IMG/VR virus record: IMGVR_UViG_3300029915_001170 | Coordinates: 1-64,000 of that record | DNA length: 64,000 nt | DNA from: a virus | Direction: 5' to 3' (one strand) | Shown here: in pieces, positions 4,672 to 28,372 of the stretch | Position numbering within the stretch: the first letter of the stretch is position 1 | Layout: every line of letters starts with the position of its first letter | Position numbers and translations under genes: made by a program | The notes under the pieces: model-generated | What the model saw: the letters and a program-made list of their open reading frames with translations, nothing else | What the model was told of the DNA's origin: nothing | Database searches by the model: none

Positions 4672-5772
4672 TTATATTTCAATATCTTCTCTGAAAGTAT
4701 CGGTTGATTTAGGTTCAATCAATTTCCAAATAGTTTCGGACACATCTTTACCATCGAGCAACCCAAATAAAATTGATGCATAATATTTGTGATCGGTCTG
4801 TAAGAAAAATGCAGCGATATCTTTTCGTGTACCTCCACTCGGTTTACGATCTAGAATTCGTTGAGCCACAAATAGTATTTTGTAGTAATCATTGGTTAAT
4901 TGTAAATTCCATTTATTCAACCAGGCCTTAAATTCGGTGGGGATAATTTCATCTGCTGCCCAAGCAAGAAGTTCTTCATTTTTTCCGTCTCGATGCATTT
5001 CCCAGATAGTATGCGGATTTAATCCCGTCAAAATTCGATGCAATTGGCAATAGGTTTCAAATTTAATTTTGACTTTGAACCCAGTTGAGTATGTTGCAAC
5101 ATATCCTTCCTGATTTCGAATATTTTCTGCTACGCAAGTTTTTAAGTCTTTAACGTGATCTTTAACCAACGGTAATTCATTCGCGATGCAGTATGATTTT
5201 AAATCCGAACGCGATAATTCCTTACCGGTTTCATTGTGAATTGCGCCTAGGGTTACAAGGCCTTCAAAATCGTATTGCACGACTATTCTATTTTCTGAAA
5301 AAATAACTTCGGTTAACAGAGTATAATCCCGCGGAAGTTTTAATCGGGGGTACTTTTTTTGCAGCCATTCGGTTGCCCAATGAGCCTGGTCTGATTCAAA
5401 TGAACCACGAGTTGCTACATAATTTTGGTTGTCCCACGAATACAGTATGCCTAACGATCCGTCCATTTTAGTCGTTAACAGGGGAACTCCAGGAGGAAGA
5501 TTAATCTCTAGAGTCTCGGGATGTCGTGCGTCATTTAAGTTCCAAAATTTCGCAAACGGTCTAGCAACAATTTCTGTCGTATCCGTACGGTAAATTAGAC
5601 CTCGGCAAGAATTCATTTCGGGACCCCAGACTAAATCCTTGCTAAATTGAGCGATCTGGGTATAATTCAAAATTGCCAGAGGAAATGTTGAATGAAATTT
5701 TCTCGAGATAAATCGATTCTTAATTAATTCTTCTAAGATATCGACATTCATAATTTGATCTAGTTTAACCAT
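4672..5772 (-). CDS. T4 RNA ligase 1-like ATP-dependent RNA ligase
   Basis: 366 aa, close to the 374 aa of T4 Rnl1. Covalent nucleotidyltransferase signatures are in order: motif I KMDGSLG at residues 102-108 (Lys102 the predicted AMP-accepting lysine), a TEV motif near 154, motif IV EGYV at 222-225 and motif V KVKIKF at 233-238. The family seals single-stranded RNA breaks, classically tRNA anticodon loops cut by host nucleases. It is the last gene of the AT-rich operon, overlaps its upstream neighbour by 8 nt, and shares the module with a polynucleotide kinase/phosphatase and a second RNA ligase, which supports an RNA-repair role. Family assignment is strong; substrate is inferred. Confidence 0.9.
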   Translation of the reverse strand: MVKLDQIMNVDILEELIKNRFISRKFHSTFPLAILNYTQIAQFSKDLVWGPEMNSCRGLIYRTDTTEIVARPFAKFWNLNDARHPETLEINLPPGVPLLTTKMDGSLGILYSWDNQNYVATRGSFESDQAHWATEWLQKKYPRLKLPRDYTLLTEVIFSENRIVVQYDFEGLVTLGAIHNETGKELSRSDLKSYCIANELPLVKDHVKDLKTCVAENIRNQEGYVATYSTGFKVKIKFETYCQLHRILTGLNPHTIWEMHRDGKNEELLAWAADEIIPTEFKAWLNKWNLQLTNDYYKILFVAQRILDRKPSGGTRKDIAAFFLQTDHKYYASILFGLLDGKDVSETIWKLIEPKSTDTFREDIEI

Positions 5773-6136
5773 CGCAGTCGCTCTTTTCTATCGTTATGGT
5801 TTTATCTTCCATAATGACCGTTACCTTTAATTCCCCGTACATTAGCAATAACTCTTTAGCAAGAATACTTGCATGTTCGTAAATTTTTTCTGGTGTTGAT
5901 GGATACAAGGGATAATTAATTAAGCCTACGATAAATCCGGGTTCAAATCCATCTATATTTTTATCTGCCGAGCTAGTATAGATAAATTCCGTTGGTGTTA
6001 GCGATACGCATAAACCTTTTGAATCACAATAGTTATGCAAAATATCCCGAGCGGCATCCAATGTCTGAATCTTATCGGAATATGCCTCTCTGAGGCCAAC
6101 GAAAATATTTGCGGTAATTGAAGAACAAGTTTTCAT
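5765..6136 (-). CDS. Hypothetical protein
   Basis: 123 aa, soluble, with no recognised domain. It has an N-terminal helical part and a C-terminal strand-rich part ending in acidic DCDG. The start at 6136 follows an upstream stop by 15 bp and the end overlaps the RNA ligase start by 8 nt, so the two are probably translationally coupled. Placement suggests a role tied to the RNA-repair genes, but nothing in the sequence shows it. Confidence 0.7.
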   Translation of the reverse strand: MKTCSSITANIFVGLREAYSDKIQTLDAARDILHNYCDSKGLCVSLTPTEFIYTSSADKNIDGFEPGFIVGLINYPLYPSTPEKIYEHASILAKELLLMYGELKVTVIMEDKTITIEKSDCDG

Positions 6137-6151
6137 AGTTTTATTATAGCA

Positions 6152-6490
6152 TTATTCAGATAACTTTTCAAGCAAATTATGACCTAGTATTTCCTTTAAA
6201 ATTTCTGTCGCTTCATCCTGCCAATTCGGATTACTTACCCAAACGGTTGGCATTACTAATTCGTTATATCTATTTGGGTTAATAGTGATATGTTTTTCAG
6301 TGATCGATTCTATTATGCACACCTCAGAGACCTGCGTAAAGGTTGTTCCATAATTACCATCGTTTCCCCAGGTATATCCTAAAATTTTAAGTTTTAACCG
6401 CTGGTATTCGTCATAAATTATGGCAATTTCGTTTTCTATCTCTACACGATCGCGTATTGCAGCAAGAACTCGTTTTTCTAGTAAACACAT
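6152..6490 (-). CDS. Hypothetical protein, KLSE-tail family member 1
   Basis: 112 aa. It shares with the products of 6716-7042 and 7045-7377 a central Y.E(W/Y)Q segment (here YDEYQ, followed by KILGYTWG), a tryptophan-rich stretch (WVSNPNW) and the same C-terminal LEKLSE. The three are tandem paralogues separated only by one small unrelated gene. Function unknown. The stop sits 15 bp before the next start; the start lies directly after the stop of the 71-aa gene upstream. Confidence 0.75.
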   Translation of the reverse strand: MCLLEKRVLAAIRDRVEIENEIAIIYDEYQRLKLKILGYTWGNDGNYGTTFTQVSEVCIIESITEKHITINPNRYNELVMPTVWVSNPNWQDEATEILKEILGHNLLEKLSE

Positions 6491-6706
6491 TTACACCAAA
6501 CTTTTTGAAAATTCCAGTGCATCCATTACCTGTTCGATTAACCCATATTCATTATTGCATGGGTATTCGACATAATCTCCATTCGGATCCATAAGATTAA
6601 CCCACCCAGAATCCCGTTCGACTTGTATGACTATGCGGTAGCCTTCGGGTAGTTCTTGAGCGCATCTCTGTAATTGTGCATCGAGTTGTAATGGGTCAAA
6701 AGTCAT
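6491..6706 (-). CDS. Small hypothetical protein
   Basis: 71 aa, acidic, N-terminal helix followed by a VIQVERDSGWVNL strand pair and a C-terminal helix. It sits between two KLSE-tail paralogues, with its stop abutting the next gene's start and an AAAAT-type gap of 9 bp upstream. No family recognised. Confidence 0.65.
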   Translation of the reverse strand: MTFDPLQLDAQLQRCAQELPEGYRIVIQVERDSGWVNLMDPNGDYVEYPCNNEYGLIEQVMDALEFSKSLV

Positions 6707-6715
6707 AATATTTTC

Positions 6716-7042
6716 CTATTCCGATAATTTTTCAATCAATACTAGATTTACTTCGTTGGTTATACCGAGCATCGCTTCAATTTTCCAATTTTCATCGCTT
6801 ATCCATCGAGTAGGAAAAATAAATTCACATCCCTGACCACTATTAACAGTGATAAATTTTAAATTCCATTTACGATTATATACTGGTCGAATAGTTGTAT
6901 CTTTTGAACGACGTCCAAACCCCCAGGTATATCCTAAATTTTTCAATTTAATTGCCTGCCATTCGGCGTAAATGTGTTCAATCTCTTTTTCGATTAACTC
7001 GGTATTTTCGGCAACAATTTTAACTACTTCTACGGGAATCAT
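6716..7042 (-). CDS. Hypothetical protein, KLSE-tail family member 2
   Basis: 108 aa. It aligns with member 1 through IYAEWQAIKLKNLGYTWG (residues about 24-41), a PTRWISDENW stretch and the terminal LIEKLSE. The gene begins 2 bp after the stop of member 3. No known domain; the conserved Trp/Tyr residues suggest a small structured domain rather than a random leftover. Confidence 0.75.
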   Translation of the reverse strand: MIPVEVVKIVAENTELIEKEIEHIYAEWQAIKLKNLGYTWGFGRRSKDTTIRPVYNRKWNLKFITVNSGQGCEFIFPTRWISDENWKIEAMLGITNEVNLVLIEKLSE

Positions 7043-7044
7043 AC

Positions 7045-7377
7045 CTACTCCGACAATTTATCAATCAGTAATTTATTTTTCCGTCGTTTTAATTTCTTCC
7101 GAAGGCAATTTTTCCAATCCGGATTGTTAAGATAGGACACAGGAATTTTTAACGCACCTGATTTTCGAGCATTAATATAAATATCCGACTCTAATAATTC
7201 CATAGAAAGTACGTTTGCTTTTTGTTTTGAACTCCTGGCCCAAAAAGACGGTTTAACTAATCCAGTGCCTAGTTCTTCGATAAGTACATCTTGCCATTCA
7301 TCGTACAACGTTGCCGCATACGTCTTAATGGCAAGAAGATTTTTAATTGTTGTATTATATAAATCTTCAGAAATCAT
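7045..7377 (-). CDS. Hypothetical protein, KLSE-tail family member 3
   Basis: 110 aa, the most divergent of the three tandem paralogues. It keeps LYDEWQ in the N-terminal half, a PVSYLNNPDW stretch and the LIDKLSE terminus, but has a basic KKLKRRKNK insert near the end. Its start overlaps the stop of the Rnl5-type ligase gene by 1 nt. Function unknown. Confidence 0.75.
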   Translation of the reverse strand: MISEDLYNTTIKNLLAIKTYAATLYDEWQDVLIEELGTGLVKPSFWARSSKQKANVLSMELLESDIYINARKSGALKIPVSYLNNPDWKNCLRKKLKRRKNKLLIDKLSE

Positions 7378-8477
7378 TAGGACAGGTCCTCATCTGAAGA
7401 TTTATATTTTCGATTCAAAAATTTCAACGAAAGATTAAAACCACGGCGGGCGACTCTTGGCACTGCGGGAGTAATTACAATTCCCTCTCGAATATGCAAA
7501 CTTTTACCGGATACTGTTTCCATTCCGCCGCTTAGTTTTTCAAAAACACTGGGATCAAACGGTCCACGATATAAAATTGGCACCCAATACTTTTCAATAA
7601 ACGATTTACCGAACGTTGTTTCGATTTCATCAACCGATAACTCTCGTCCGTCGATTCGTATTCTAAAAAGTTTAATTGTCGGCTTATCTTGTCCGTACGA
7701 ATATCCAGGCTGACAAGGAATAACTTCCCCCACAAACTGAACATCAAAATTTTTAAGATCAATACTTTCGGGTTCTAATAGATCGCATTTTACTAGGTTG
7801 ATTAACCCAGAATTTTCTAATGCCTGCCAGTAAAGATTCTTTTCCGAGCGCTCTATTACTTGATCTCGCTCATTCATCCCCTTGCTAGTTACCCCGATTT
7901 CTCCTGTCTTTGAAAAATAGAAATTTCCCTGAGAACCGTGAATTTTTTCTGAAGTAATACAATCCTCACCAAATACAAATTCATCTGCAAACAGTCGAAA
8001 TTGTTCAACGTCGTGGTGGGCTGCTCGGGACCCGAAATTAACAGAGTCAAATGAATTAATAATTCCCGACATATTATATGGAATTACCGGCTGATATTTA
8101 TAGATTCCTAATTTTTCTGAAATATCCACATTAAGAGGGATATTCTCAACCGCATTCCATTCGGGGACGGTGGCAAGAACCCAATCAATTGGCAGAGTTA
8201 CTCCCTCACTTAATTCTCCACGCAGACGAACCTGTTTAACTCGATTATGTTCGGAACCGGTTAGATAACTAATACCGGTTGCTGAATTAACATATTCGCT
8301 TTTCAACGAATCCGGCAGAATTGCTCTCTCCGGCGCGAATACGATCACATCCCCATTTTGATATTGTCCCATACCAACAACAATTTGAAATTTGCCGGCT
8401 CGACCGATCTGCATACGATCTGCATTAGGGTGGGGCAGTAATTCAATCTTTGTCGCAAAGGTTTCCCAAATTGCCAT
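7377..8477 (-). CDS. Rnl5/DraRnl-type RNA ligase (DRB0094 family)
   Basis: 366 aa. The N-terminal third resembles the OB-fold appendage of Deinococcus DraRnl-type ligases. The nucleotidyltransferase domain follows: motif I EKIHGS at residues 177-182 with Lys178 as predicted nucleophile, a later VGEV motif III, REGIVITP motif IV and a basic SLKFLNRKYK motif V near the C-terminus. Known members seal nicked duplexes with an RNA 3'-OH strand. The gene lies just downstream of a polynucleotide kinase/phosphatase and upstream of a T4-Rnl1-type ligase, so one module carries two ligases of different classes. Confidence 0.88.
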   Translation of the reverse strand: MAIWETFATKIELLPHPNADRMQIGRAGKFQIVVGMGQYQNGDVIVFAPERAILPDSLKSEYVNSATGISYLTGSEHNRVKQVRLRGELSEGVTLPIDWVLATVPEWNAVENIPLNVDISEKLGIYKYQPVIPYNMSGIINSFDSVNFGSRAAHHDVEQFRLFADEFVFGEDCITSEKIHGSQGNFYFSKTGEIGVTSKGMNERDQVIERSEKNLYWQALENSGLINLVKCDLLEPESIDLKNFDVQFVGEVIPCQPGYSYGQDKPTIKLFRIRIDGRELSVDEIETTFGKSFIEKYWVPILYRGPFDPSVFEKLSGGMETVSGKSLHIREGIVITPAVPRVARRGFNLSLKFLNRKYKSSDEDLS

Positions 8478-8541
8478 AAATACTCCTTATTTCTTAAATA
8501 CCATACTCGTCCGATTTCCAATTAATTAGCGGGTTTCTTAT

Positions 8542-9510
8542 TTAGAAATTTCCAATCGCGCCGCAATGTTCACAGGTTTTTTTCGAATCAACTCCCAAAT
8601 TTGGGCAGGTTAATGAATGATGAGGAGTTCCCCGAACAGGAATACACTTAATACCGTTGGCCCGCCATGCTTTTTCAACAACCTGATATCTGTCGTCGAT
8701 TGCCATTAGAATTTGTTCCTTTGACACAAGGCCGAGTAATTCGTTGAGAATTTCACTTTTTGCGATATAGTCATGTCTAGAATCCCAACCGTGCCGCATA
8801 AAGATATGATCAAATGGGATTTGATAAAAATTTAGCCAAGCAATAGTCGCGTCTCCGCATGTAGAATGTCTGCCTGATACAATTAAAATTGTATGATCTT
8901 TAGCTAATTCACGAACCCACGCAGCAATCAATGGATAAACTCTATCCTTCCCTACTGCATCTTCATCGTATGGACTACGGATTCCAGTAGAATTGGCAAG
9001 GGTACCGTCTACATCTACAAGCACAATCTTTTTATTGGGATCAAGTTGCAACCTGCCACTCTTAAGAAATTGGCGGCAAATTACAGCTCGGCCAACATGA
9101 GATTTACCGATACGGCCTTCATCATGCTGAATACAATCTTCAAGGCTTGTTTCCATTCGATGAATATACGAAGAAACTTTCATATTTGCAGCAATGTTTT
9201 GCAACCTTGAAACAGAACTTAAAGAAAGATGGGTATTGTCCAGCAAAACCGAATAGCCATTAGATAAAAAATGTCGAATTTGAAGCTCTTCAACGGCAGC
9301 AACATCTTTTTCCAACGAGGTATCGGATGAATGTAACATTGATCGAATATCATCTCGATTAATCCGCACAATTTTTCTTTCTCTGTGTTGGTCGATATAC
9401 TCACGCGCCCAAGTGCTCTTACCGCTTCCCGATTCTCCTTGAACGATGGTGAGAGTAACAGCCCCAGCAATGTGGGGATTGTTTGCGGCTGGCGATTTAT
9501 GTTGCTGCAT
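8542..9510 (-). CDS. pseT: T4-type polynucleotide 5'-kinase/3'-phosphatase
   Basis: 322 aa (T4 enzyme 301). The N-terminal kinase domain has the P-loop GESGSGKST at residues 25-33; the C-terminal HAD phosphatase domain has DVDGT at 166-170 and later SGR and DD motifs. A C-terminal CP..(..)CEHCG cluster could bind zinc and is not part of the T4 protein as I know it. The enzyme would heal RNA ends to 3'-OH and 5'-phosphate for the two ligases downstream. Its 5' end overlaps the upstream HNH gene by 292 nt; the next internal Met lies past the P-loop, so the long overlap cannot be removed by moving the start. Confidence 0.9.
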   Translation of the reverse strand: MQQHKSPAANNPHIAGAVTLTIVQGESGSGKSTWAREYIDQHRERKIVRINRDDIRSMLHSSDTSLEKDVAAVEELQIRHFLSNGYSVLLDNTHLSLSSVSRLQNIAANMKVSSYIHRMETSLEDCIQHDEGRIGKSHVGRAVICRQFLKSGRLQLDPNKKIVLVDVDGTLANSTGIRSPYDEDAVGKDRVYPLIAAWVRELAKDHTILIVSGRHSTCGDATIAWLNFYQIPFDHIFMRHGWDSRHDYIAKSEILNELLGLVSKEQILMAIDDRYQVVEKAWRANGIKCIPVRGTPHHSLTCPNLGVDSKKTCEHCGAIGNF

Positions 9511-13179: not shown

Positions 13180-13208
13180 ATATTAATTTGTTTTTATATA
13201 TTTGTCAA
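13180..13208 (-). promoter_or_regulatory. Sigma70-type promoter overlapping the clpX stop codon
   Basis: Minus strand: TTGACA (13203-13208) includes the TGA stop of clpX, then a 17-bp AT-rich spacer and TAATAT (13180-13185); an alternative TATAAT lies 3 bp further. It would give clpS a promoter separate from clpX. Confidence 0.7.
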
Positions 13209-14461
13209 GACTTTTTTAATTTATTTTCGTATAATTCAATTTTTGGTGCGGTGTTATTAACAATACAGTTTTCATCAAAAATCATTTTATTAATATTACG
13301 AGTTTTATATTCCGGAATCAAATACATATGTTCTTGAATCACAGATTCGCATAAAGTACGAAGGCCTCGCGCTCCTGTCTTTTCTTTTTTTGCTAGTTCA
13401 GCAATTTTATGAATGAACCCGGGAGTAAAATCTAATTCGATGCCGTCAATATTAAAATAAAATTTAAATTCATTGAGAATGTTATTATCTAATACTGATA
13501 AAATTTTAACTAACTCGTCAATCGATAATTCCGTTGTTCTTGTTTTAAGAGGAAAGCGGCCAATAAATTCGGGTATAATACCAAAATTAATAAAGTCTTC
13601 GGTTGTATATTTAGAACCTAAATCTGTTGACGGAGTGACCGTATCTAAAAATCCCAACCCCTGTTTTGTTTTCATCCGTGACTTAACAATTTCATTCATT
13701 CCAAAAAATGCGCCGCCACAAATAAATAAAATGTTTTTTGTATTGACTTCAATCATTTGCGGCAATGTAGGCCGCTTTGAAGTTCCATTAAGAGGAATTC
13801 TAATAATTGATCCCTCCACCAGTTTTAATAGCGCCGATTGCACACCGGATACTCGATTATCGCTTGTTGACGTCCTATTTTTCCCTGTTGCAATTTTATC
13901 AATTTCATCTATAAATACAATTCCGCATTCGGCCTTATCGATATCTCCATCGGCTTCGATTACTAATCTAGAAATAATAGTATCTACATTTTCGCCAATA
14001 TACCCAGCTTCGGTTAAGGTAGTTGCATCTACTGTAATAAACGGAACATTAAGAAAATGAGCAATAGATCCAATGAGTAGACTTTTCCCGCTGCCGCTGG
14101 GACCGGTAATAATAAGATTGCTCTTGTTAATAATCGCGGATGAATTTTCACTATATAGCATTCGCTTATAATGATTTGCCACGCTTACACTAAGCGCAAT
14201 TTTAGCCGGTTCTTGCCCAACTACAAATTTATCTAAATATTGCCGAATTAAAATAGGATTTAGAAGCTCGTTTTCGATTACTGCCGCCGGTTCGACATCT
14301 GGGTTAATGGTATGAATCAAACTACTACATCGCTGAATGCAAGAATCGCATATAAAAAAATCACCGGTGCCGACCAACTTAACGCTTTCGGCTCTACTTT
14401 TACCACAAAATATGCAATTTGATTGTTCGTCGGATTTACAACTAGAAGTTTTTTTAGTCAT
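13205..14461 (-). CDS. clpX: ClpX AAA+ unfoldase
   Basis: 418 aa, almost full bacterial length (E. coli 424). N-terminal zinc-binding domain C16-x2-C19...C38-x2-C41; Walker A GPSGSGKS at 120-127; pore loop GYIG at 153-156; Walker B IVFIDEIDK at 181-189; LGF tripeptide at 269-271 in the position of the ClpP-docking IGF loop; sensor-2 GARGLR near the C-terminal domain. All parts needed to unfold substrates and dock on ClpP are present. No ClpP was seen in the window, so it probably partners host ClpP and competes with host ClpX. The gene start abuts the stop of a small membrane protein gene. Confidence 0.95.
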   Translation of the reverse strand: MTKKTSSCKSDEQSNCIFCGKSRAESVKLVGTGDFFICDSCIQRCSSLIHTINPDVEPAAVIENELLNPILIRQYLDKFVVGQEPAKIALSVSVANHYKRMLYSENSSAIINKSNLIITGPSGSGKSLLIGSIAHFLNVPFITVDATTLTEAGYIGENVDTIISRLVIEADGDIDKAECGIVFIDEIDKIATGKNRTSTSDNRVSGVQSALLKLVEGSIIRIPLNGTSKRPTLPQMIEVNTKNILFICGGAFFGMNEIVKSRMKTKQGLGFLDTVTPSTDLGSKYTTEDFINFGIIPEFIGRFPLKTRTTELSIDELVKILSVLDNNILNEFKFYFNIDGIELDFTPGFIHKIAELAKKEKTGARGLRTLCESVIQEHMYLIPEYKTRNINKMIFDENCIVNNTAPKIELYENKLKKS

Positions 14462-15146: not shown

Positions 15147-15899
15147 TTAGAGCCTGATTAAAATTGCAGTTGCATTGTCGTGGGAGCCAGCGCTAATCGC
15201 AGACTGAATTACATCATCGGCGGTTACCGAGTTTACATCAATAAGAGTAGCTAGATTATTAACTAATTGGTCGGTATTTTTATGACCCGGATCTAAGATG
15301 CCATCGGTGCCGCATAAAACCCAACTATTTTTAGCCAATGAAATTCTAAAAACTTCTGGTTCACGATTAAGAACAACATCCAAATCACGATCACCCAATG
15401 CTCTGCTCATCTGAAGTCCACCGCCATCTAGATTCCGAGCATCGAATAAATAGCCGTCAACAATTATACCGTCTTCACTGGCAGTAGCAGCGGCCGCTTC
15501 CGCAGCATTAGACCGTACGTTATGTTCTGGTGCGACCCAGATTTTACCATCCGCATCCTTAATAATTACAGGGCTATCGCCAATTACAGCGACGTTTGCA
15601 AATTTTTGTTTTTCGTTTAAGTGAACAATAGAAGCGGTAGTGCCTGTATATGAATGTCTTAGGTCGAAATTCAAAATATGAATTACTTCGGAAAGAATAT
15701 CTAATCCCGCAAAATTTGACCCAAACAAAAGTTCTCGAAAAATACGAGAACAATTTGCGGCAGCATACTCTGCCGCAATTTCTCCCCCGTGGCCGTCAAA
15801 CACTCCGAAAAATACATTTGAACTATCAAGATGATCAATAAAAAATCTATCCTCTTGATGCAATCTACGATTTTGTTTGGTATCTACTGTCATCTTCAT
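15147..15899 (-). CDS. PP2C-family Ser/Thr protein phosphatase
   Basis: 250 aa with all core motifs in order: QEDRF, VFDGHGG (33-39), GTTAS, VIGDSP, LQMSRALGD, CGTDGI and HDNATAI. Metal-binding Asp residues are therefore kept, so it should be active in Mn/Mg-dependent removal of Ser/Thr phosphates. It is soluble and lacks regulatory extensions. In a phage it could reverse host kinase signalling; the target is unknown. Confidence 0.92.
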   Translation of the reverse strand: MKMTVDTKQNRRLHQEDRFFIDHLDSSNVFFGVFDGHGGEIAAEYAAANCSRIFRELLFGSNFAGLDILSEVIHILNFDLRHSYTGTTASIVHLNEKQKFANVAVIGDSPVIIKDADGKIWVAPEHNVRSNAAEAAAATASEDGIIVDGYLFDARNLDGGGLQMSRALGDRDLDVVLNREPEVFRISLAKNSWVLCGTDGILDPGHKNTDQLVNNLATLIDVNSVTADDVIQSAISAGSHDNATAILIRL

Positions 15900-18757: not shown

Positions 18758-18952
18758 TTATCGATTCACATGTTCCCGAGAATTTAACAATTTCTTAAGT
18801 TTCCCTACATATTCGATATCTAGCTTTACAGTCTTTGGGCTATATCCCCAGCCATCACGGTAATAATATAATTCTACCCGGCGGGCCTTGTATAGAGCAA
18901 GTAATCTTGGGGTTGGCAATGCAGCTAATTGTTCATCGGATAAAATAATCAT
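18758..18952 (-). CDS. Small hypothetical protein
   Basis: 64 aa, N-terminal LSDEQLAALPTPRLLALYKARR helix similar to those in small phage proteins that pair an L..L..LP motif with basic residues. No known domain. A TATAAT box without a good -35 lies about 45 bp upstream. Confidence 0.6.
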   Translation of the reverse strand: MIILSDEQLAALPTPRLLALYKARRVELYYYRDGWGYSPKTVKLDIEYVGKLKKLLNSREHVNR

Positions 18953-19035: not shown

Positions 19036-19560
19036 TTACTTTTCGCTCGATAAATTATCATATGCCGGTAATTCCTTTCTTCCTGACTTAATTTCGTGCC
19101 ATTCACGTTCATCGGTACAAATGTATACATCGGTTTCATTCCGATAGATAAATGGCGGCCAGTTAATATTTAACAAAACATCTACGCATCTACTGCAAAG
19201 ATTATATTTTTCACCTGGCCAATAGGGATGAATTGCGATATCATCTGTGATTCTTTTGCAACGATTACATTGCCCACCGGTAGCTAGTGAAACTTTGCAG
19301 CATAATTCGGGTCCCTCGATGAGATCAACCTTAGCAACCTTAAACATTTCGGGTAAAGATGTGTAATATTCAAGTAATTTAGCTAGTTCGGTTATTGATC
19401 CAAAAATTTCAATACTAGCTAACTCTGATTTTCCGAAAAGGCCGGCAGATCTACAGGTTTCGAGTTCTTTGTTGACAATGGGGTTAACAACTTCAATGAT
19501 CCAAGTCAATGAAGGAAATACTTCGGATGAAGAAAATAATTTTTTAACTTTTTCAGTCAT
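19036..19560 (-). CDS. Free-standing IleRS C-terminal (zinc/tRNA-binding) domain protein
   Basis: 174 aa. Residues 20-54 (W..VVNPIVNKELE...GLFGKSELASIEIFG) follow the IleRS C-terminal helical region, whose usual form is VN..LE.AR....G.SLEA.VTLY. ELAKLLEYY and LPEMFKVAKVDL match the next helix-strand unit. Residues 90-127 reproduce the IleRS zinc finger: KVSLATGGQCNRC (C98, C101) and LCSRCV (C122, C125). No Rossmann fold, HIGH or KMSKS is present, so it cannot aminoacylate. In IleRS this region helps hold tRNA-Ile. Gene lies 9 bp below a membrane-protein gene. Similarity is from memory of the family, not a search. Confidence 0.78.
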   Translation of the reverse strand: MTEKVKKLFSSSEVFPSLTWIIEVVNPIVNKELETCRSAGLFGKSELASIEIFGSITELAKLLEYYTSLPEMFKVAKVDLIEGPELCCKVSLATGGQCNRCKRITDDIAIHPYWPGEKYNLCSRCVDVLLNINWPPFIYRNETDVYICTDEREWHEIKSGRKELPAYDNLSSEK

Positions 19561-19569
19561 ATTGTGCTT

Positions 19570-19902
19570 TTATACTTTCTTTTCAGGATTAATGTTTGAT
19601 GCATTACCGAGTGAGCGCCCGATCGTAGTAAGATCCGTCGTCACGAACCAAAATGCCCACCAAATCGAGGAATGCAGCATACCTAAACCAAACGCAAGTA
19701 AAAAGATAATGGTGAAGTATGGAAATAAGAAGAACGGCATCTTCTTCGTATTTTTAGCAACATAAATTGTATACTGATCGATTAGGAAAAATATAATTAG
19801 ATACCAATATGACAATGAAATAACATTTGCAAATTTCGCAAATAAAAAGAGTTCTCCTAAATACGGAAATGCAAAGCTAAGGTTTTTAAAAATATTTTTC
19901 AA
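19570..19902 (-). CDS. Membrane protein with three to four predicted helices
   Basis: 110 aa, hydrophobic segments at about 8-24, 28-44, 53-76 and 80-90, short soluble tail. Family not recognised. It overlaps the upstream gene by 4 nt and is followed within 10 bp by the IleRS-tail gene, hence cotranscribed. Confidence 0.65.
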   Translation of the reverse strand: MKNIFKNLSFAFPYLGELFLFAKFANVISLSYWYLIIFFLIDQYTIYVAKNTKKMPFFLFPYFTIIFLLAFGLGMLHSSIWWAFWFVTTDLTTIGRSLGNASNINPEKKV

Positions 19903-20392: not shown

Positions 20393-20689
20393 TTAATCTG
20401 CCGGTACCCATCCGATTCCTGGAAGTTGATCCATTTTTCCGTGATCTCCGGCTAACAATCTCCAACTACCATCTTTAATGCGGATAACTTCTCCACCGGC
20501 AATTTCTTCGGCGGGATTTGTAATTTTACGCCATCCGCCGCAAGAACATGTAAAAGGAAAGAGTCGTTTGTTACATGGTGAAATACACCCGCCGACCATA
20601 ATACTTCCCTGCTTTATTAACCTTTGCGCTTCTCCACGCGAACGCGCCAGGTCCAACTCCAATTCCAATATCGCCTTGTCGAGTTTCAC
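20393..20689 (-). CDS. Stand-alone S4-type RNA-binding protein resembling the TyrRS tail
   Basis: 98 aa. LARSRGEAQRLIKQGSIMVGG (residues 14-34) is a strong S4 motif with the LIKQG..VNG pattern seen at the C-terminus of bacterial TyrRS; NPAEEIAGGEVIRIKDGSWRLL (58-79) fits the closing strands. An insert of about 23 aa with three Cys (CNKRLFPFTCSCGG) separates the halves and may bind metal. Nothing else of a synthetase is present. It shares an operon with the IleRS-tail protein. Confidence 0.7.
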   Translation of the reverse strand: MKLDKAILELELDLARSRGEAQRLIKQGSIMVGGCISPCNKRLFPFTCSCGGWRKITNPAEEIAGGEVIRIKDGSWRLLAGDHGKMDQLPGIGWVPAD

Positions 20690-21315: not shown

Positions 21316-22137
21316 TTATTTGCATTGCGCTTTCTTCGCTTTTTCGAAGGTGCCCAGATCAACTGGCCACAAAATCGTCGATTCTTTATAGTCAACAGGA
21401 AGTGGAAAATTAACATCGGCTTCGTCAGAAATATTATGCACAGTAGAAGTAACCGTTGTTAGGTCATTTCCATCAATTCCTGCCGCAGGAAAAATAAAGG
21501 GTAATACCTCATGTGTTTGCAGATCAACTACGATTTTATAAAAAGCATACGGAACATCTACCTGATCAATGCCAATTTTTTTATCAACATTTGTATGATA
21601 TAATGGACCAGCATAAATTAATAATGCATGATTTCGTTCATATGCCCAGGCTCGAACATCAGATTCAAGTAATTTCCAGGAGCCACGATTCAATTTTGCA
21701 GTTTGCGGTGTCATGTTTGTAAGAATAAAAGATTCCTGTTCAACCTTGGCATTCCACGACATATCTCCGTTATTCGCAATATGCCCTGTATCATACCCGG
21801 ATCCGGCATAATCTTTTGGGTCGGCTCTTTTATTGCTCGGCAGCGATTGGTCTGCGGCAAATGAATTTGATCGAGGCACGCAACCAATAGATCGACTCGG
21901 TGTTAATACATATGACACCCAAACCGGAATCTTAGCAATTGTATCCGATTCTAAGATATACGCATCTCGGCAAATCACTGTTCCATCTGGTTTATCCGGT
22001 AAATTAGGTTTAATATGACTCGGTTGCCCAAATGGAACAAATTGCGTGCATTGATTGGTAGATAACGGCCTTGGTTGTTGCCCATAAACTGAAATCGTCA
22101 TTACACTGCATAAGATTAAAAATATAGATTTTATCAT
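21316..22137 (-). CDS. Secreted ββα-metal DNA/RNA non-specific endonuclease (NUC family)
   Basis: 273 aa. Residues 1-20 form a signal peptide (MIKSIFLILC..ISVYG). The catalytic core reads YDTGHIANNGDM (115-126) with the general-base His119, then ESFILTNMTPQTAKLNRGSW (about 135-154) with the metal-binding Asn. The family motif is DRGH; here Arg is Thr, which may lower activity. Predicted to act in the periplasm or outside the cell. A phage secreting a nuclease could degrade competing DNA or extracellular DNA; this role is inference. Confidence 0.88.
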   Translation of the reverse strand: MIKSIFLILCSVMTISVYGQQPRPLSTNQCTQFVPFGQPSHIKPNLPDKPDGTVICRDAYILESDTIAKIPVWVSYVLTPSRSIGCVPRSNSFAADQSLPSNKRADPKDYAGSGYDTGHIANNGDMSWNAKVEQESFILTNMTPQTAKLNRGSWKLLESDVRAWAYERNHALLIYAGPLYHTNVDKKIGIDQVDVPYAFYKIVVDLQTHEVLPFIFPAAGIDGNDLTTVTSTVHNISDEADVNFPLPVDYKESTILWPVDLGTFEKAKKAQCK

Positions 22138-23898: not shown

Positions 23899-26800
23899 CT
23901 AGAACACCGTTACGTTGTAGGCCAGACTTGGCGGCGTTCCGGTCCCGCAGACATAGACCGTCACTGTATTTGTTGCCGTCACTGATGCCCGAAGATTAAA
24001 CGCTCCTCCCACATCAGCGCCCGTTGTGCTGCTAACTACTACTGGATGCCCGACCACTGCACCCGTCACGCTTGCCGTGCCTGAATCGCAGGTTGCCGTT
24101 AGAGCCGTTCCGGTGATCGTGCCCGTCGTGCCAGAAAGCGCAAGCTGCACATACCCCGCCGCTGGACCCTGATAGCCGAGAGCCGTCGAAGGGATTACGG
24201 TAACCGCGCCCCGTACTTGGTATGATCCTTTAATGTCGAGGTTGCCATATGGATCTAAGATCAAGTCGTTGAAGCTGTTAGTGGGATCATGCACTAATAG
24301 ACTGTATGCAGCACCCACTCCTGAGCCAATAGACAAACTCGTCGCCGCAGGAGAATTTAGGCTTGGAGCAACAAGACCGCCGCCTATACTTGTACTAACA
24401 GACCCGGTCCCGCACAGAACCTGGCTTGCATTATTTTGAATTCCGATGTTTATTGAATACATGCCGGAATTGAAATTGCATGTTCCGGAGGTATCATTTC
24501 CAACTACACTCGCGGTGTTCACATTGATAAGGTCTACTCCATTGACAGAGGAAGGGGCGTTGATATAATTTCCAGAGACGGTAATCTGGGCTGCGGCCTG
24601 TCCATTTGTACCGGCTTGGATGTTTACCGTTCCAAGACTTGCTTCAAAGAAGTTTTGGGATACATCCGTATTAACGCTGGCCCCCAAGAAGATGTGACCG
24701 CTGAGTGTAGCTGCGGTGCCATTGCCCTCGAACGCGATTCCTCCATCGTAAGTGTTGGAAAAGGTCGATCCGGTTGCCGTATTGTCAGCATAATCGTCGA
24801 AGATTCCCCAGAGTGAATTGGCTTCAATCGTTCCACCGCTGATGTGGATTGCGTTTGATGCCGTCCCGGTGGGGGTGTAACCGACTTCCCACACGCCATA
24901 TTTGTTGCCGTAAGAGTTCAGATTCAAGACGGTTGACACTCCCGATCCGTGGAAGTAGACACCCGCACCGCCGGGGAAATTCTTGGTTGTGACGTTAGTT
25001 AGGTTTGACCCGTAGAATCCCCGCAGCTCAATCCCATTAGAACCGCTTGTCGATGATATTCCGTCAATCACGCAATTAGTTACGGTGAATCCTAAGTCTT
25101 GCAATATAGCGTTCCCGGTTGCCAGAATCGCAGAGCCGCTTCCTTGCCAATTCAGGACCGTACCGGGATCGCAAACTAATGCGTACTTTTCATTGCTGGC
25201 AGTGAGAGCAAACGCAGCTTGTGTTGTGAAGACATAAGTCCCAAGGGGAACGGACACAGTTCCGCCGCTGGGCAATCCAGCTACGGAGGTATTGATTTTC
25301 GCGCCTATATCTGCGCCGGTTTGCAGAGCCGCATTCACTACTCCGTTCACAGCGCCAGCCGCGACGGTGCCTGAGAACATCGCATTTCCTGAATCGTCAA
25401 TCTTCCACATATAAGCACTGTTGCTGCTGTTCGCTCCATATACTTCTGCTCGCGTGTCATTGGCGGCAGGAACAATAGCGATAGCAGTCTGTGTGAGGCT
25501 AGGATACAAAGTAAGTGCATTAGCCTGTAAAGTATAGAAATTAAACGCATCGCTCGAATAATTCTGAATATAATCTGCCCCGAGCGTATCTATGCTTGTT
25601 CCATTTAATAGTCCTTGTACCCAGTTCACGTTTACTCTTCCGGAAACCGAACTTGACGGCACATACCAGGAATATGCCGAATCGTAAATATTGAAATTGA
25701 ACGTGTTGGCATCAATATTCGCAGTAGCGGTCGTAGTTGTTGTGGCAGATATTCCAATAGATGAAGGGGTTCCATTTCCTTCAAAAAACCCCTCAAATGT
25801 ATTCGCCTCGATTTGTTTTCCTGCATTTAAAAGAGTGATCCCAGTGGCGGGAATTGAGGTAGATACGGCAAGAAAAGTCAGGCCCTTAAACTCATTTGCG
25901 TTAATCCAACCACCATTCGAGGTTGAAAGAACCAATGGCCGCAAAACGCCGTTAGTGTACATTCCATTGACATGGGTATACGCCGCGCCATAGTTCAAAG
26001 TTGGGCAGTTAATAAGTAGTCCTATTCCTGGCGCTGAAGTTGCTCCATCAATAGATAAATTATCAATTTCAGGCCCTATAATTGGCCCCCCGGTGGTGCA
26101 GGTAAAACTTACCGCACTTCCAGAATACGTGATTGGATAATTCCCCAGCCCAACATGAAGTCCTTTGAGAATACTCCCTCCCACTACATGCACCACGTCT
26201 GATGACACTGCTGCGGGAATAATTGTCGTTGCATCCGAGAAATCAAGCTCTTGGCCAGCAGTTAGGGAAATCGTCCCGGCAAGAACCTGCGTAGTAGTTC
26301 CAAGGCAACTTGCATCTACCTTACCCAGAGACAATGGGAGTGATGCAAAGGCATTCGCTATTTTCACATCGGCAGTCGAGCCTGAAAAATAACAGGCTGA
26401 CACACCGTTATTGACCAAAGGGGATGTAATCGCAGCGCCCGCCGTGACGGTGCCTGGGAATGTGCAAACTTGCGATGATCCTGTACCAACGCAAGAGATT
26501 CCACTAGGAAGTGATCCTGTTACCCATGCAGTACCATTCCAGTACAGCTGAGTCTGATTGGTAACACTCCAGTAAGTGCCGCCAACAGGATAAGTAAGAA
26601 TTGCTTCCACATTTGCATAACCATACGCTCCAGCGATCGCATTGAAGCGTGGGGCTAGGATGTTTGCATCTACGAGAGTTGAAATATTCTGCGAGACTCC
26701 AGAAATAGGTGTTGTTGTGATACCGCATTTTGACTGCGCTAACGGACACACAGTGAACTGCCACTGGCTTCCTACAGGAGTTATTTTGCTGTTATCATAG

Positions 26801-27054
26801 ACAGAAAGTGAAAAAGAACTTGTTCCATCTAAAGTAACAGGTCCTTGATTCAATATCGATGGAGAAAGAGGTGCTCCATTAATATTGTAGATGCTGATAT
26901 TTGGTTGAGCAGAATTAGGTACGAACTGTACCGTGACCGAGCCATTTGACCAAAGCGTTCCATCGCTATCTGTGACTGTTGCGGTTACGTTAGTTGTCTG
27001 AGCCGCTGTAATAGTGGCAAAAAGAAAAAAGAAACATGCAAACTTCTTCAACAT
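23899..27054 (-). CDS. Exported beta-helix tail-fiber/spike-like protein
   Basis: 1051 aa from the ATG at 27054, chosen for AAGGAG 6 nt upstream and because it opens with a signal peptide (MLKKFACFFFLFATITAAQ). Residues about 20-140 are an Ig-like beta region (VTATVTDSDGTLWSNGSVTV), followed by two beta-helix blocks of pectin-lyase type (about 280-560 and 640-900) and a Ser/Thr/Gly-rich C-terminus. It is the last large gene of the late operon, where fibers and spikes usually lie. Sec-type export of a virion fiber would be unusual; it could be an exported polysaccharide-acting enzyme. Confidence 0.75.
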   Translation of the reverse strand: MLKKFACFFFLFATITAAQTTNVTATVTDSDGTLWSNGSVTVQFVPNSAQPNISIYNINGAPLSPSILNQGPVTLDGTSSFSLSVYDNSKITPVGSQWQFTVCPLAQSKCGITTTPISGVSQNISTLVDANILAPRFNAIAGAYGYANVEAILTYPVGGTYWSVTNQTQLYWNGTAWVTGSLPSGISCVGTGSSQVCTFPGTVTAGAAITSPLVNNGVSACYFSGSTADVKIANAFASLPLSLGKVDASCLGTTTQVLAGTISLTAGQELDFSDATTIIPAAVSSDVVHVVGGSILKGLHVGLGNYPITYSGSAVSFTCTTGGPIIGPEIDNLSIDGATSAPGIGLLINCPTLNYGAAYTHVNGMYTNGVLRPLVLSTSNGGWINANEFKGLTFLAVSTSIPATGITLLNAGKQIEANTFEGFFEGNGTPSSIGISATTTTTATANIDANTFNFNIYDSAYSWYVPSSSVSGRVNVNWVQGLLNGTSIDTLGADYIQNYSSDAFNFYTLQANALTLYPSLTQTAIAIVPAANDTRAEVYGANSSNSAYMWKIDDSGNAMFSGTVAAGAVNGVVNAALQTGADIGAKINTSVAGLPSGGTVSVPLGTYVFTTQAAFALTASNEKYALVCDPGTVLNWQGSGSAILATGNAILQDLGFTVTNCVIDGISSTSGSNGIELRGFYGSNLTNVTTKNFPGGAGVYFHGSGVSTVLNLNSYGNKYGVWEVGYTPTGTASNAIHISGGTIEANSLWGIFDDYADNTATGSTFSNTYDGGIAFEGNGTAATLSGHIFLGASVNTDVSQNFFEASLGTVNIQAGTNGQAAAQITVSGNYINAPSSVNGVDLINVNTASVVGNDTSGTCNFNSGMYSINIGIQNNASQVLCGTGSVSTSIGGGLVAPSLNSPAATSLSIGSGVGAAYSLLVHDPTNSFNDLILDPYGNLDIKGSYQVRGAVTVIPSTALGYQGPAAGYVQLALSGTTGTITGTALTATCDSGTASVTGAVVGHPVVVSSTTGADVGGAFNLRASVTATNTVTVYVCGTGTPPSLAYNVTVF

Positions 27055-27064
27055 AAAAATCTCC

Positions 27065-28372
27065 TTACAACCAACTGTTAGTTTCAAGAAACTGGTATCT
27101 CTTGAGAGTTGATTTGGTAATGTCTGTGCGATATTGCATGTTTGGGATGTTGATACGACCGATTCTTCTATCACAAGAGCTTGAGGCTTCTTCGATGGAA
27201 GAGCCGACTCCAATGGGAGCGCAGATATACCCATAGTTGCCGCTTGTTATGAGTTTCTTGCCATCTTTTGCAAGCTTTACATCGAACAAATACGTGTTTA
27301 CAAGCTGCTCAAGATCCTCAGGATCAAGCCCTTCTACTGGTACATCTTTCGCTTTTGGAAGCCGTAGCTCTGTCGGATACGGCGGTATTGAGAGCGTAAC
27401 AGATACTCCGAACGGAGCAGTCCATTTAATCTCCGGCGTCTTTCCAGCGGCGATATTTTGAAGAAGTTTCGCATATCCATGTCCATACATCGTTGCAATT
27501 GTGGGACAGCACAAGTAACCAAAGCGAGGAGTCCATTCTAGAGCATAGAGCTTATCTTCGGTTACGATAGAGTTGAGATCGAGAATTCCTCTAAAGCCAA
27601 CAGCTTGCAAGAATGGGATCGCTTTCTTCAATCCCTCCCTGTAGATTCTTGATTCATCCGAGAGTGCAAAAATGAGATTTCCAGAACAACCTGTGTTTGG
27701 ACCTTTGTTTTCATTCATGAACTTTTTTTCTTCCAACGTGCCAGTTAGAAGATAAAAATCAGTCCCATTAAAAAACCCTTCTATCCCAATCTCCTGCCCT
27801 TTGACAAACTCTTGCAGGATAAAAGGAGCATGTTTAGCAGCATTCCACAAAGTGTCGATATACTCAATAAGATCAGCCGCGCTTTTTGCAACGTAGGTGG
27901 TGGCTGTGTCCTGAGTCTGGCCTCCTTCTGTAAAAGGCTTAAATACATACGGTCTGTCATTCTTTCGTAGAAAAGCCTTAGCCTCAGTGGGCGTGTTAAA
28001 TCTGGTATATGGGGGTACATTGATTCCGCAGTCCTCCATGGCTTTAAGGCCAGCTTCTCTGTCGTCCTCGAGCAAATGCTCGAAAGAACCGTCACCGAGT
28101 GTGGCTGCTTGCATCCTTGAAGCATCAGCTTGTTTCGCTTTGCCGGTAAGATCAAACAGCGATAAATCATATCCAGCATAATCAGGATATCCAAATCCTG
28201 CCACTGTACGCCGATGATCTAGCGATAGCTTCTTGGGGGGTGGTATTAGCCCCCCAAGAACATCCACGTAGTCAGATTTGGATAGGTAGTAATCTACATC
28301 GTGGCCTTCTGCAAGGAGCCGAAGTACAAACCACGCTCCCAAGCCTGTATACGAGGACATTGCTATTTTCAT
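27065..28372 (-). CDS. ATP-grasp ligase, PurD-like
   Basis: 435 aa. An N-terminal Rossmann-like unit is followed by the ATP-grasp core: FKPFTEGGQTQDT (about 144-156), ILQEFVKGQEIGIEGFF, a MNENKGPNTGCSGN segment and the metal site LEWTPRFGY. The C-terminal part (VSVTLSIPPYP, YICAPIGVGSSIEEA) resembles phosphoribosylamine-glycine ligase. It lies between fiber and ejection-type genes, so it may act on a peptide or small molecule linked to the virion rather than in purine synthesis. Confidence 0.8.
   Translation of the reverse strand: MKIAMSSYTGLGAWFVLRLLAEGHDVDYYLSKSDYVDVLGGLIPPPKKLSLDHRRTVAGFGYPDYAGYDLSLFDLTGKAKQADASRMQAATLGDGSFEHLLEDDREAGLKAMEDCGINVPPYTRFNTPTEAKAFLRKNDRPYVFKPFTEGGQTQDTATTYVAKSAADLIEYIDTLWNAAKHAPFILQEFVKGQEIGIEGFFNGTDFYLLTGTLEEKKFMNENKGPNTGCSGNLIFALSDESRIYREGLKKAIPFLQAVGFRGILDLNSIVTEDKLYALEWTPRFGYLCCPTIATMYGHGYAKLLQNIAAGKTPEIKWTAPFGVSVTLSIPPYPTELRLPKAKDVPVEGLDPEDLEQLVNTYLFDVKLAKDGKKLITSGNYGYICAPIGVGSSIEEASSSCDRRIGRINIPNMQYRTDITKSTLKRYQFLETNSWL

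Follow-up and report, generated by a model that had tools for sequence, protein, structure and literature searches.

A tailed phage encodes a stand-alone homologue of the isoleucyl-tRNA synthetase C-terminal domain together with a tRNA-Ile(UAU)

Introduction

Phages are known to carry tRNAs, and the locus described here raises the question of why one of them should also carry, as a protein of its own, the C-terminal end of a bacterial tRNA synthetase. The stretch of DNA that was analysed (the window) spans 64,000 nucleotides, positions 1 to 64,000 of the IMG/VR virus record IMGVR_UViG_3300029915_001170, which is 99,640 bases (99.6 kb) long. The initial annotation had read a 174-aa ORF of the window, here called IleC, as a free-standing C-terminal domain of isoleucyl-tRNA synthetase (IleRS) in a phage. 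The C-terminal zinc peptide of IleRS is said, in work by Glasfeld from 1996, to be needed for tRNA recognition.

Results

IleC is a homologue of the IleRS C-terminal domain

Some ORFs of the record were read as terminase, portal and tail-fibre genes of a tailed phage, and the neighbouring phage genes and the IMG/VR virus record support the view that the domain is in a phage. The gene sits in a minus-strand series of small genes, with a G+C content below that of the structural genes.

Profile and fold searches both led to the C-terminal end of IleRS, as had been proposed. The NCBIfam IleRS model (NF040702) matched IleC residues 22-129 at model positions 987-1090 of 1100 (E=7.5e-7), and the homologue from a related phage, G054 (see below), matched at the C-terminal end of the same model with E=2.2e-11. 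BLASTP against E. coli IleRS, a single comparison, aligned IleC residues 29-126 with residues 819-925 (E=9e-4). A four-sequence profile run against solved structures returned IleRS 8c9e/8c9f (4.5e-23) and S. aureus IleRS 1ffy (4.6e-21), with matches confined to C-terminal residues 797-916; two of the four rows of this profile are bacterial IleRS tails, so the score arises partly by construction and is not independent. A profile search of genome contigs with an alignment of IleC and the E. coli tail gave two matches, both IleRS C-termini. Foldseek placed 1qu2, 8c9f and 8c9e on top for the AlphaFold models of both phage proteins (E=1.2e-6 for IleC, on a low-confidence model with pLDDT 65; E=7.6e-8 for the G054 homologue, whose model has pLDDT 77 and exceeds 90 over most of the SD2 part), with a clear gap between the IleRS structures and all non-IleRS matches.

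The C-terminal domain of IleRS comprises SD1-SD3, and the zinc motif of type-1 IleRS (IleRS1) lies within SD3 (PMC10485003). By our own mapping onto this scheme, IleC is therefore SD2 plus SD3 without SD1, the helical anticodon-binding bundle. It resembles the SD2-SD3 part of IleRS1 (S. aureus 1qu2/1ffy, Priestia 8c9e, E. coli) in fold, in the order and spacing of the VNK-LE-R-GKS elements, in the CxRC...CxRC knuckle and in matching over the whole domain, but differs in lacking the catalytic, editing and SD1 parts, in carrying Lys for Trp after the second cysteine, in an extra conserved extension and in being phage-encoded. The motif of this extension was not found in aligned IleRS from E. coli, Erwinia and Colwelliaceae. 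IleC is acidic (pI 5.2), as is the E. coli tail (5.0).

The C98-C101/C122-C125 knuckle noted at the outset held up: the four cysteines are invariant in the phage and bacterial rows of the alignment, all align with the IleRS zinc ligands, and they are predicted to bind zinc. The zinc finger alone is a weak match to Pfam PF06827 zf-FPG_IleRS (14.1 bits for IleC and 18.7 bits for the G054 copy, both under the curated cut-off of 21.3), and the identification consequently rests on the whole match of about 110 aa. Across that length only IleRS matched, which rules out an FPG/Nei-type or other zinc-finger family; no better match to another such family was found. DUF7685 was insignificant as an identity (E=0.08). 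Together, these data confirm IleC as the C-terminal part (SD2 and zinc-bearing SD3) of a type-1 bacterial IleRS, its sole good match; the protein is homologous to the IleRS C-terminal domain and is not itself an IleRS.

The tRNA-synt_1 catalytic domain (PF00133) was absent from the whole 99.6-kb record, in a search whose control was positive in 14 of 14 genomes. The phage protein thus cannot charge a tRNA itself, and a split IleRS gene with its other part elsewhere in the phage is ruled out. The TilS N domain was not found in the phage record either.

Table 1. Coordinates of the IleC gene, its parts and other features; positions refer to the window unless another label is given.
Feature	Position	Strand	Remarks
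Stand-alone IleRS C-terminal-domain protein (IleC)	19036..19560	-	174 aa, ATG start, stop included
SD2-like part, aa 20-95	19276..19503	-	W..V..IVNKELE..R...L.GKSELASIEI helix and sheet; IleRS alignment; AlphaFold helix 18-38 and strands
SD3-like zinc knuckle, aa 98-125	19186..19269	-	C98-N-R-C101-K102 ... C122-S-R-C125; cysteines align with IleRS in all rows
Lys102 codon	19255..19257	-	E. coli IleRS Trp905 position; Trp in 47/47 readable bacterial IleRS, Lys in both phages
Phage-specific C-terminal extension, aa 130-174	19039..19173	-	Motif WPPfI...DVYICxDEREWHE; kept in G054, absent from IleRS
Upstream neighbour, hydrophobic 110-aa ORF	19570..19902	-	Directly upstream in G054 too
Downstream neighbour, 64-aa ORF	18758..18952	-	Downstream in G054 too
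G054 copy of IleC	L098:3462-3935; record 68952-69425	-	157 aa
tRNA-Ile(UAU), window phage	record 98,844-98,920	-	ARAGORN
tRNA-Ile(UAU), G054	103,961-104,035	-	ARAGORN
'tRNA-Ile(GAU)', window phage	L086:7960-8034	-	ARAGORN
RNA-repair cluster	4672-9510	-
T4 Rnl1-like RNA ligase	4672-5772	-
Second RNA ligase	7377-8477	-	PHA02142 OB-fold
PNKP-like kinase/phosphatase	8542-9510	-
ClpX-like AAA+ ATPase	13205-14461	-	N-terminal zinc finger; kept in related phages (58-62% identity)
PP2C-type protein phosphatase	15147-15899	-	Accessory block of IleC
S4-domain protein	20393-20689; L179:5549-5845	-	98 aa
DNA/RNA non-specific endonuclease	21316-22137	-	Likely signal peptide; same accessory block
Permuted tmRNA, G052	L190:996-1201
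tRNA with anticodon-loop insertion	L086:17501-17634; record 99,501-99,634	-
Tail-fibre-like ORF	23899-27234	-
Tail-fibre-like ORF	L085:6602-10201	-

A second, syntenic copy in a related phage

Searching relatives through the neighbouring ClpX-like gene led to G054 (IMGVR_UViG_3300028909_000017, 125,414 bp), and the two domain-bearing phages are related soil phages. G054 carries an intact ORF 51% identical to IleC, with which it shares the four cysteines, CNRCKR, HPYWP and the C-terminal extension; a TGA that the search counted within the match is not part of this ORF, whose frame is uninterrupted between ATG and stop. The neighbourhood is common to both phages as well: tRNA-Cys, an 80-aa ORF, the 110-aa hydrophobic ORF, IleC and the 64-aa ORF, continuing with a 260-aa ORF and the HD, WGR, PP2C, PRTase and ClpX genes, while a few other small genes differ. 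A further related phage, G052 (127,373 bp), keeps the flanking HD, 260-aa and 110-aa genes, PP2C and ClpX, yet despite this syntenic block the IleRS-tail domain was not found in it, nor was it found in the 65-kb record of another relative, G053. IleC is thus a real, conserved gene.

The stand-alone domain is rare

As far as the collections searched show, the initial annotation was also right about how rare such a protein is; no published example came to light of a phage that has the tRNA-reading part of a synthetase and nothing else of the enzyme. No relative of IleC was present among 50,697 phage records. Annotated phage records that matched the E. coli IleRS tail proved to be pieces of bacterial chromosome, with ileS next to lspA, and the unannotated ones are most likely the same. 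Plasmids yielded one weak match annotated as IleRS and one match to the knuckle only. Single-sequence scans of IMG/VR with the domain, the E. coli-mixed alignment, the 260-aa neighbour and the nuclease gene returned nothing, and when the two phage proteins served as queries the G054 copy alone came back, pattern scans of this kind being liable to miss distant relatives. There was no match in 50 of the terminase-based relatives, which are mostly short contigs.

Among Pseudomonadota, 275 of 299 genomes contained the IleRS-tail domain. Nearly all of the matches listed (about half of the rows) lay in long frames of about 930-1300 aa, and the few shorter frames among them (222-602 aa) were still longer than the phage gene; a 281-aa frame in G051 is part of an IleRS gene split over two frames. 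Named phages, plasmids, the IMG/VR scans and the listed matches from the 299 Pseudomonadota genomes gave no further copy of the domain on its own.

Both phage proteins carry Lys at the W905 site

W905 of E. coli IleRS is the residue directly after the second zinc cysteine. Trp occupied this site in 47 of 47 bacterial IleRS (30 of 30 first-listed loci and all 17 readable of 20 further ones) and in the S. aureus and Priestia enzymes too; every IleRS read shares this Trp, which does not formally define the family. The two phage proteins carry Lys instead, thereby departing from the IleRS family at a residue that is invariant in every other IleRS read.

In Mycoplasma mobile, as Taniguchi et al. 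reportedly found in 2013, IleRS has Arg865, and a W905R change is said to let E. coli IleRS charge tRNA-Ile(UAU). We take the Arg at the W905-equivalent site to be what decides UAU recognition in the M. mobile enzyme. A UAU tRNA without modification decodes AUA efficiently when the ribosomes come from M. mobile, but not when they come from E. coli (PMC4014445); the decoding step in the host would thus pose a problem of its own.

The phage encodes a tRNA-Ile(UAU)

Among the at least 24 tRNA genes of the window phage, the one with the highest score in the record (70.6 bits, Rfam) is a tRNA-Ile(UAU), and G054 has a tRNA-Ile(UAU) with one mismatch in the anticodon stem. Set against the bacterial Ile identity set (PMC9976931, Table 1 therein), both carry C4-G69, U12-A23, C29-G41, A37, A38 and A73, in a comparison that covered the stem and loop elements outside the D-loop, with U at base 34 where C/G34 is listed. 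An ARAGORN call of 'tRNA-Ile(GAU)' in the window phage, with C33 and U37, scored under the Rfam cut-off and is probably decayed or re-purposed rather than functional as an isoleucine tRNA.

Domain and tRNA-Ile(UAU) occur together in two phages and are jointly absent from G052, whose only tRNA-Ile is tRNA-Ile(GAU); with two domain-bearing phages and one contrast, this co-occurrence comes from three related genomes and carries no statistical weight. G053 has an atypical 94-nt UAU tRNA, with G29-C41 instead of C29-G41. The two genes lie far apart in the phages, with no operon link. Codon usage was rejected as an explanation, since phages that have the pair cannot be told from those that lack it by their AUA use (18.7 per 1000 codons in G052, which lacks it, and 11.3 in G000).

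Discussion

The pairing of domain and tRNA points to a means by which the virus could alter the choice of tRNA charged by a host enzyme. Our preferred reading, held tentatively, is that IleC may read the anticodon in trans and assist host IleRS in charging the phage tRNA-Ile(UAU), which is the simplest account that uses its identity, the co-occurrence and the residue facts. The initial annotation had suggested binding of tRNA-Ile or a change to host IleRS, and that idea becomes more specific with the tRNA-Ile(UAU) that occurs alongside and with Lys replacing Trp at the W905 site. IleC would bind the anticodon arm of the phage tRNA, use Lys102 to accept U34 and present the tRNA to host IleRS, whose own Trp-type C-terminal module it would replace or supplement. 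Host enzymes may read tRNA-Ile(UAU) poorly; the host catalytic core would thereby charge a tRNA that is a poor substrate for ordinary bacterial IleRS, and infected cells could then read AUA codons with no need for lysidine (TilS). We put forward with somewhat more reserve the fuller picture of a virus-encoded, detachable specificity subunit, in which the phage would give the tRNA-Ile(UAU) and the tail, the host IleRS core would do the charging, and AUA decoding would be rewired in trans during infection.

Parts of this proposal have counterparts elsewhere. M. mobile presumably pairs its UAU tRNA with a basic residue (Arg) at the W905 site, as the phages do with the observed Lys, although there the change lies inside the full enzyme and here on a separate small protein. 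Arc1p and Trbp111, which we take to be cellular trans-acting tRNA-binding factors with an EMAP-type OB fold, are separate modules like IleC, and none derives from an IleRS tail. Split E. coli IleRS is said to reassemble from its pieces, a finding of Shiba and Schimmel in 1992. An isolated class I C-terminal domain, that of human mt-LeuRS, acts in trans on tRNAs including mt-tRNA-Ile (PMC3927953), which supports the feasibility of a trans-acting reader; that domain is an engineered laboratory construct, from another synthetase and mitochondrial, and trans action by the phage protein is our proposal. YbaK (PMC3973320) likewise keeps a synthetase-type domain as a free-standing protein, but is cellular, edits, and is not derived from the IleRS tail.

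Counted against a trans-acting reader are the UAU tRNA of G053 without the domain, the ordinary AUA use, the distance between the genes, the acidity of the protein and the missing SD1; its weak points are the small number of genomes (three) and the lack of an operon link. If the trans mechanism is true, an added protein of about 160-175 aa can change the specificity of an essential host enzyme. This would explain, in a testable way, how phage tRNAs whose anticodons are unusual for the host get charged, and would provide a natural example of a split synthetase as well as a potential component for engineering the genetic code.

Alternatively, IleC might bind the anticodon arm of tRNA-Ile, phage or host, as a chaperone or shield that guards it against anticodon nucleases or decay and leaves synthetase specificity unchanged. 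Besides its many tRNA genes, the phage has a PNKP-like kinase/phosphatase and a pair of RNA ligases, enzymes classically used to mend cleaved tRNAs; phage tRNAs have been reported to counter tRNA-cutting defences (PMC10264068, PMC11555353), and mutant mt-tRNAs are rescued by the isolated LeuRS C-terminal domain (PMC3927953). We nevertheless consider this unlikely, as protection alone explains neither the conserved Trp-to-Lys change nor the link to the UAU isoacceptor, and G052, equally rich in tRNAs, is without the gene.

A partial copy of the host enzyme, in a phage record without a tRNA-synt_1 domain, could also be a dominant-negative competitor. IleC would then rival the IleRS tail in binding tRNA or the enzyme body, and would inhibit or redirect host isoleucylation, slowing host translation or signalling uncharged tRNA. 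This seems rather unlikely: the phage's own proteins need isoleucylation, the co-occurrence with tRNA-Ile(UAU) is not predicted, and K102 would weaken, not mimic, recognition of the host's own tRNA-Ile. About as unlikely, in our view, is the co-option of an IleRS-derived zinc fold to bind something else, be it mRNA, ribosome, DNA or protein, by way of the phage-specific extension. Its conserved motif, not found in IleRS, the acidity of the protein and the loss of the Trp of every other IleRS read would fit such a change, whereas the whole of SD2 and SD3 is kept with the IleRS-typical core (W, VNK-like helix, LE..R, GKS, zinc ligands), not the knuckle alone. Finally, a functionless, decaying broken end of an acquired ileS gene, a possibility already raised in the initial annotation, would fit the coverage of only the last ~110 IleRS residues but is excluded in practice by the phage genes' own start codons, the tightly packed neighbours, the intact, 51%-identical syntenic G054 copy with all zinc ligands, the conserved extension past the IleRS end and a record free of catalytic-domain remains.

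Other genes and RNAs of the phages

The S4-domain protein of the window (PF01479, 7.4e-6) has a 61%-identical copy in G054, for which the best Pfam match was the TyrRS C-terminal domain (PF22421, E=0.0046, below cut-off), and it was not found in G052. This may be another synthetase-type RNA-binding domain that stands alone and is distributed like IleC. Two unusual RNAs were also observed: a permuted tmRNA in G052 (Rfam RF04321, 73.1 bits against a gathering score of 47), and, in the window phage, a tRNA (52.7 bits, Rfam) with an insertion of ~58 nt in the anticodon loop, which looks like tRNA-Pro(UGG) and whose insert holds a T-arm-like piece. The translations of two tail-fibre-like ORFs share a long, near-identical internal segment, which suggests duplication or swapping of a fibre module.
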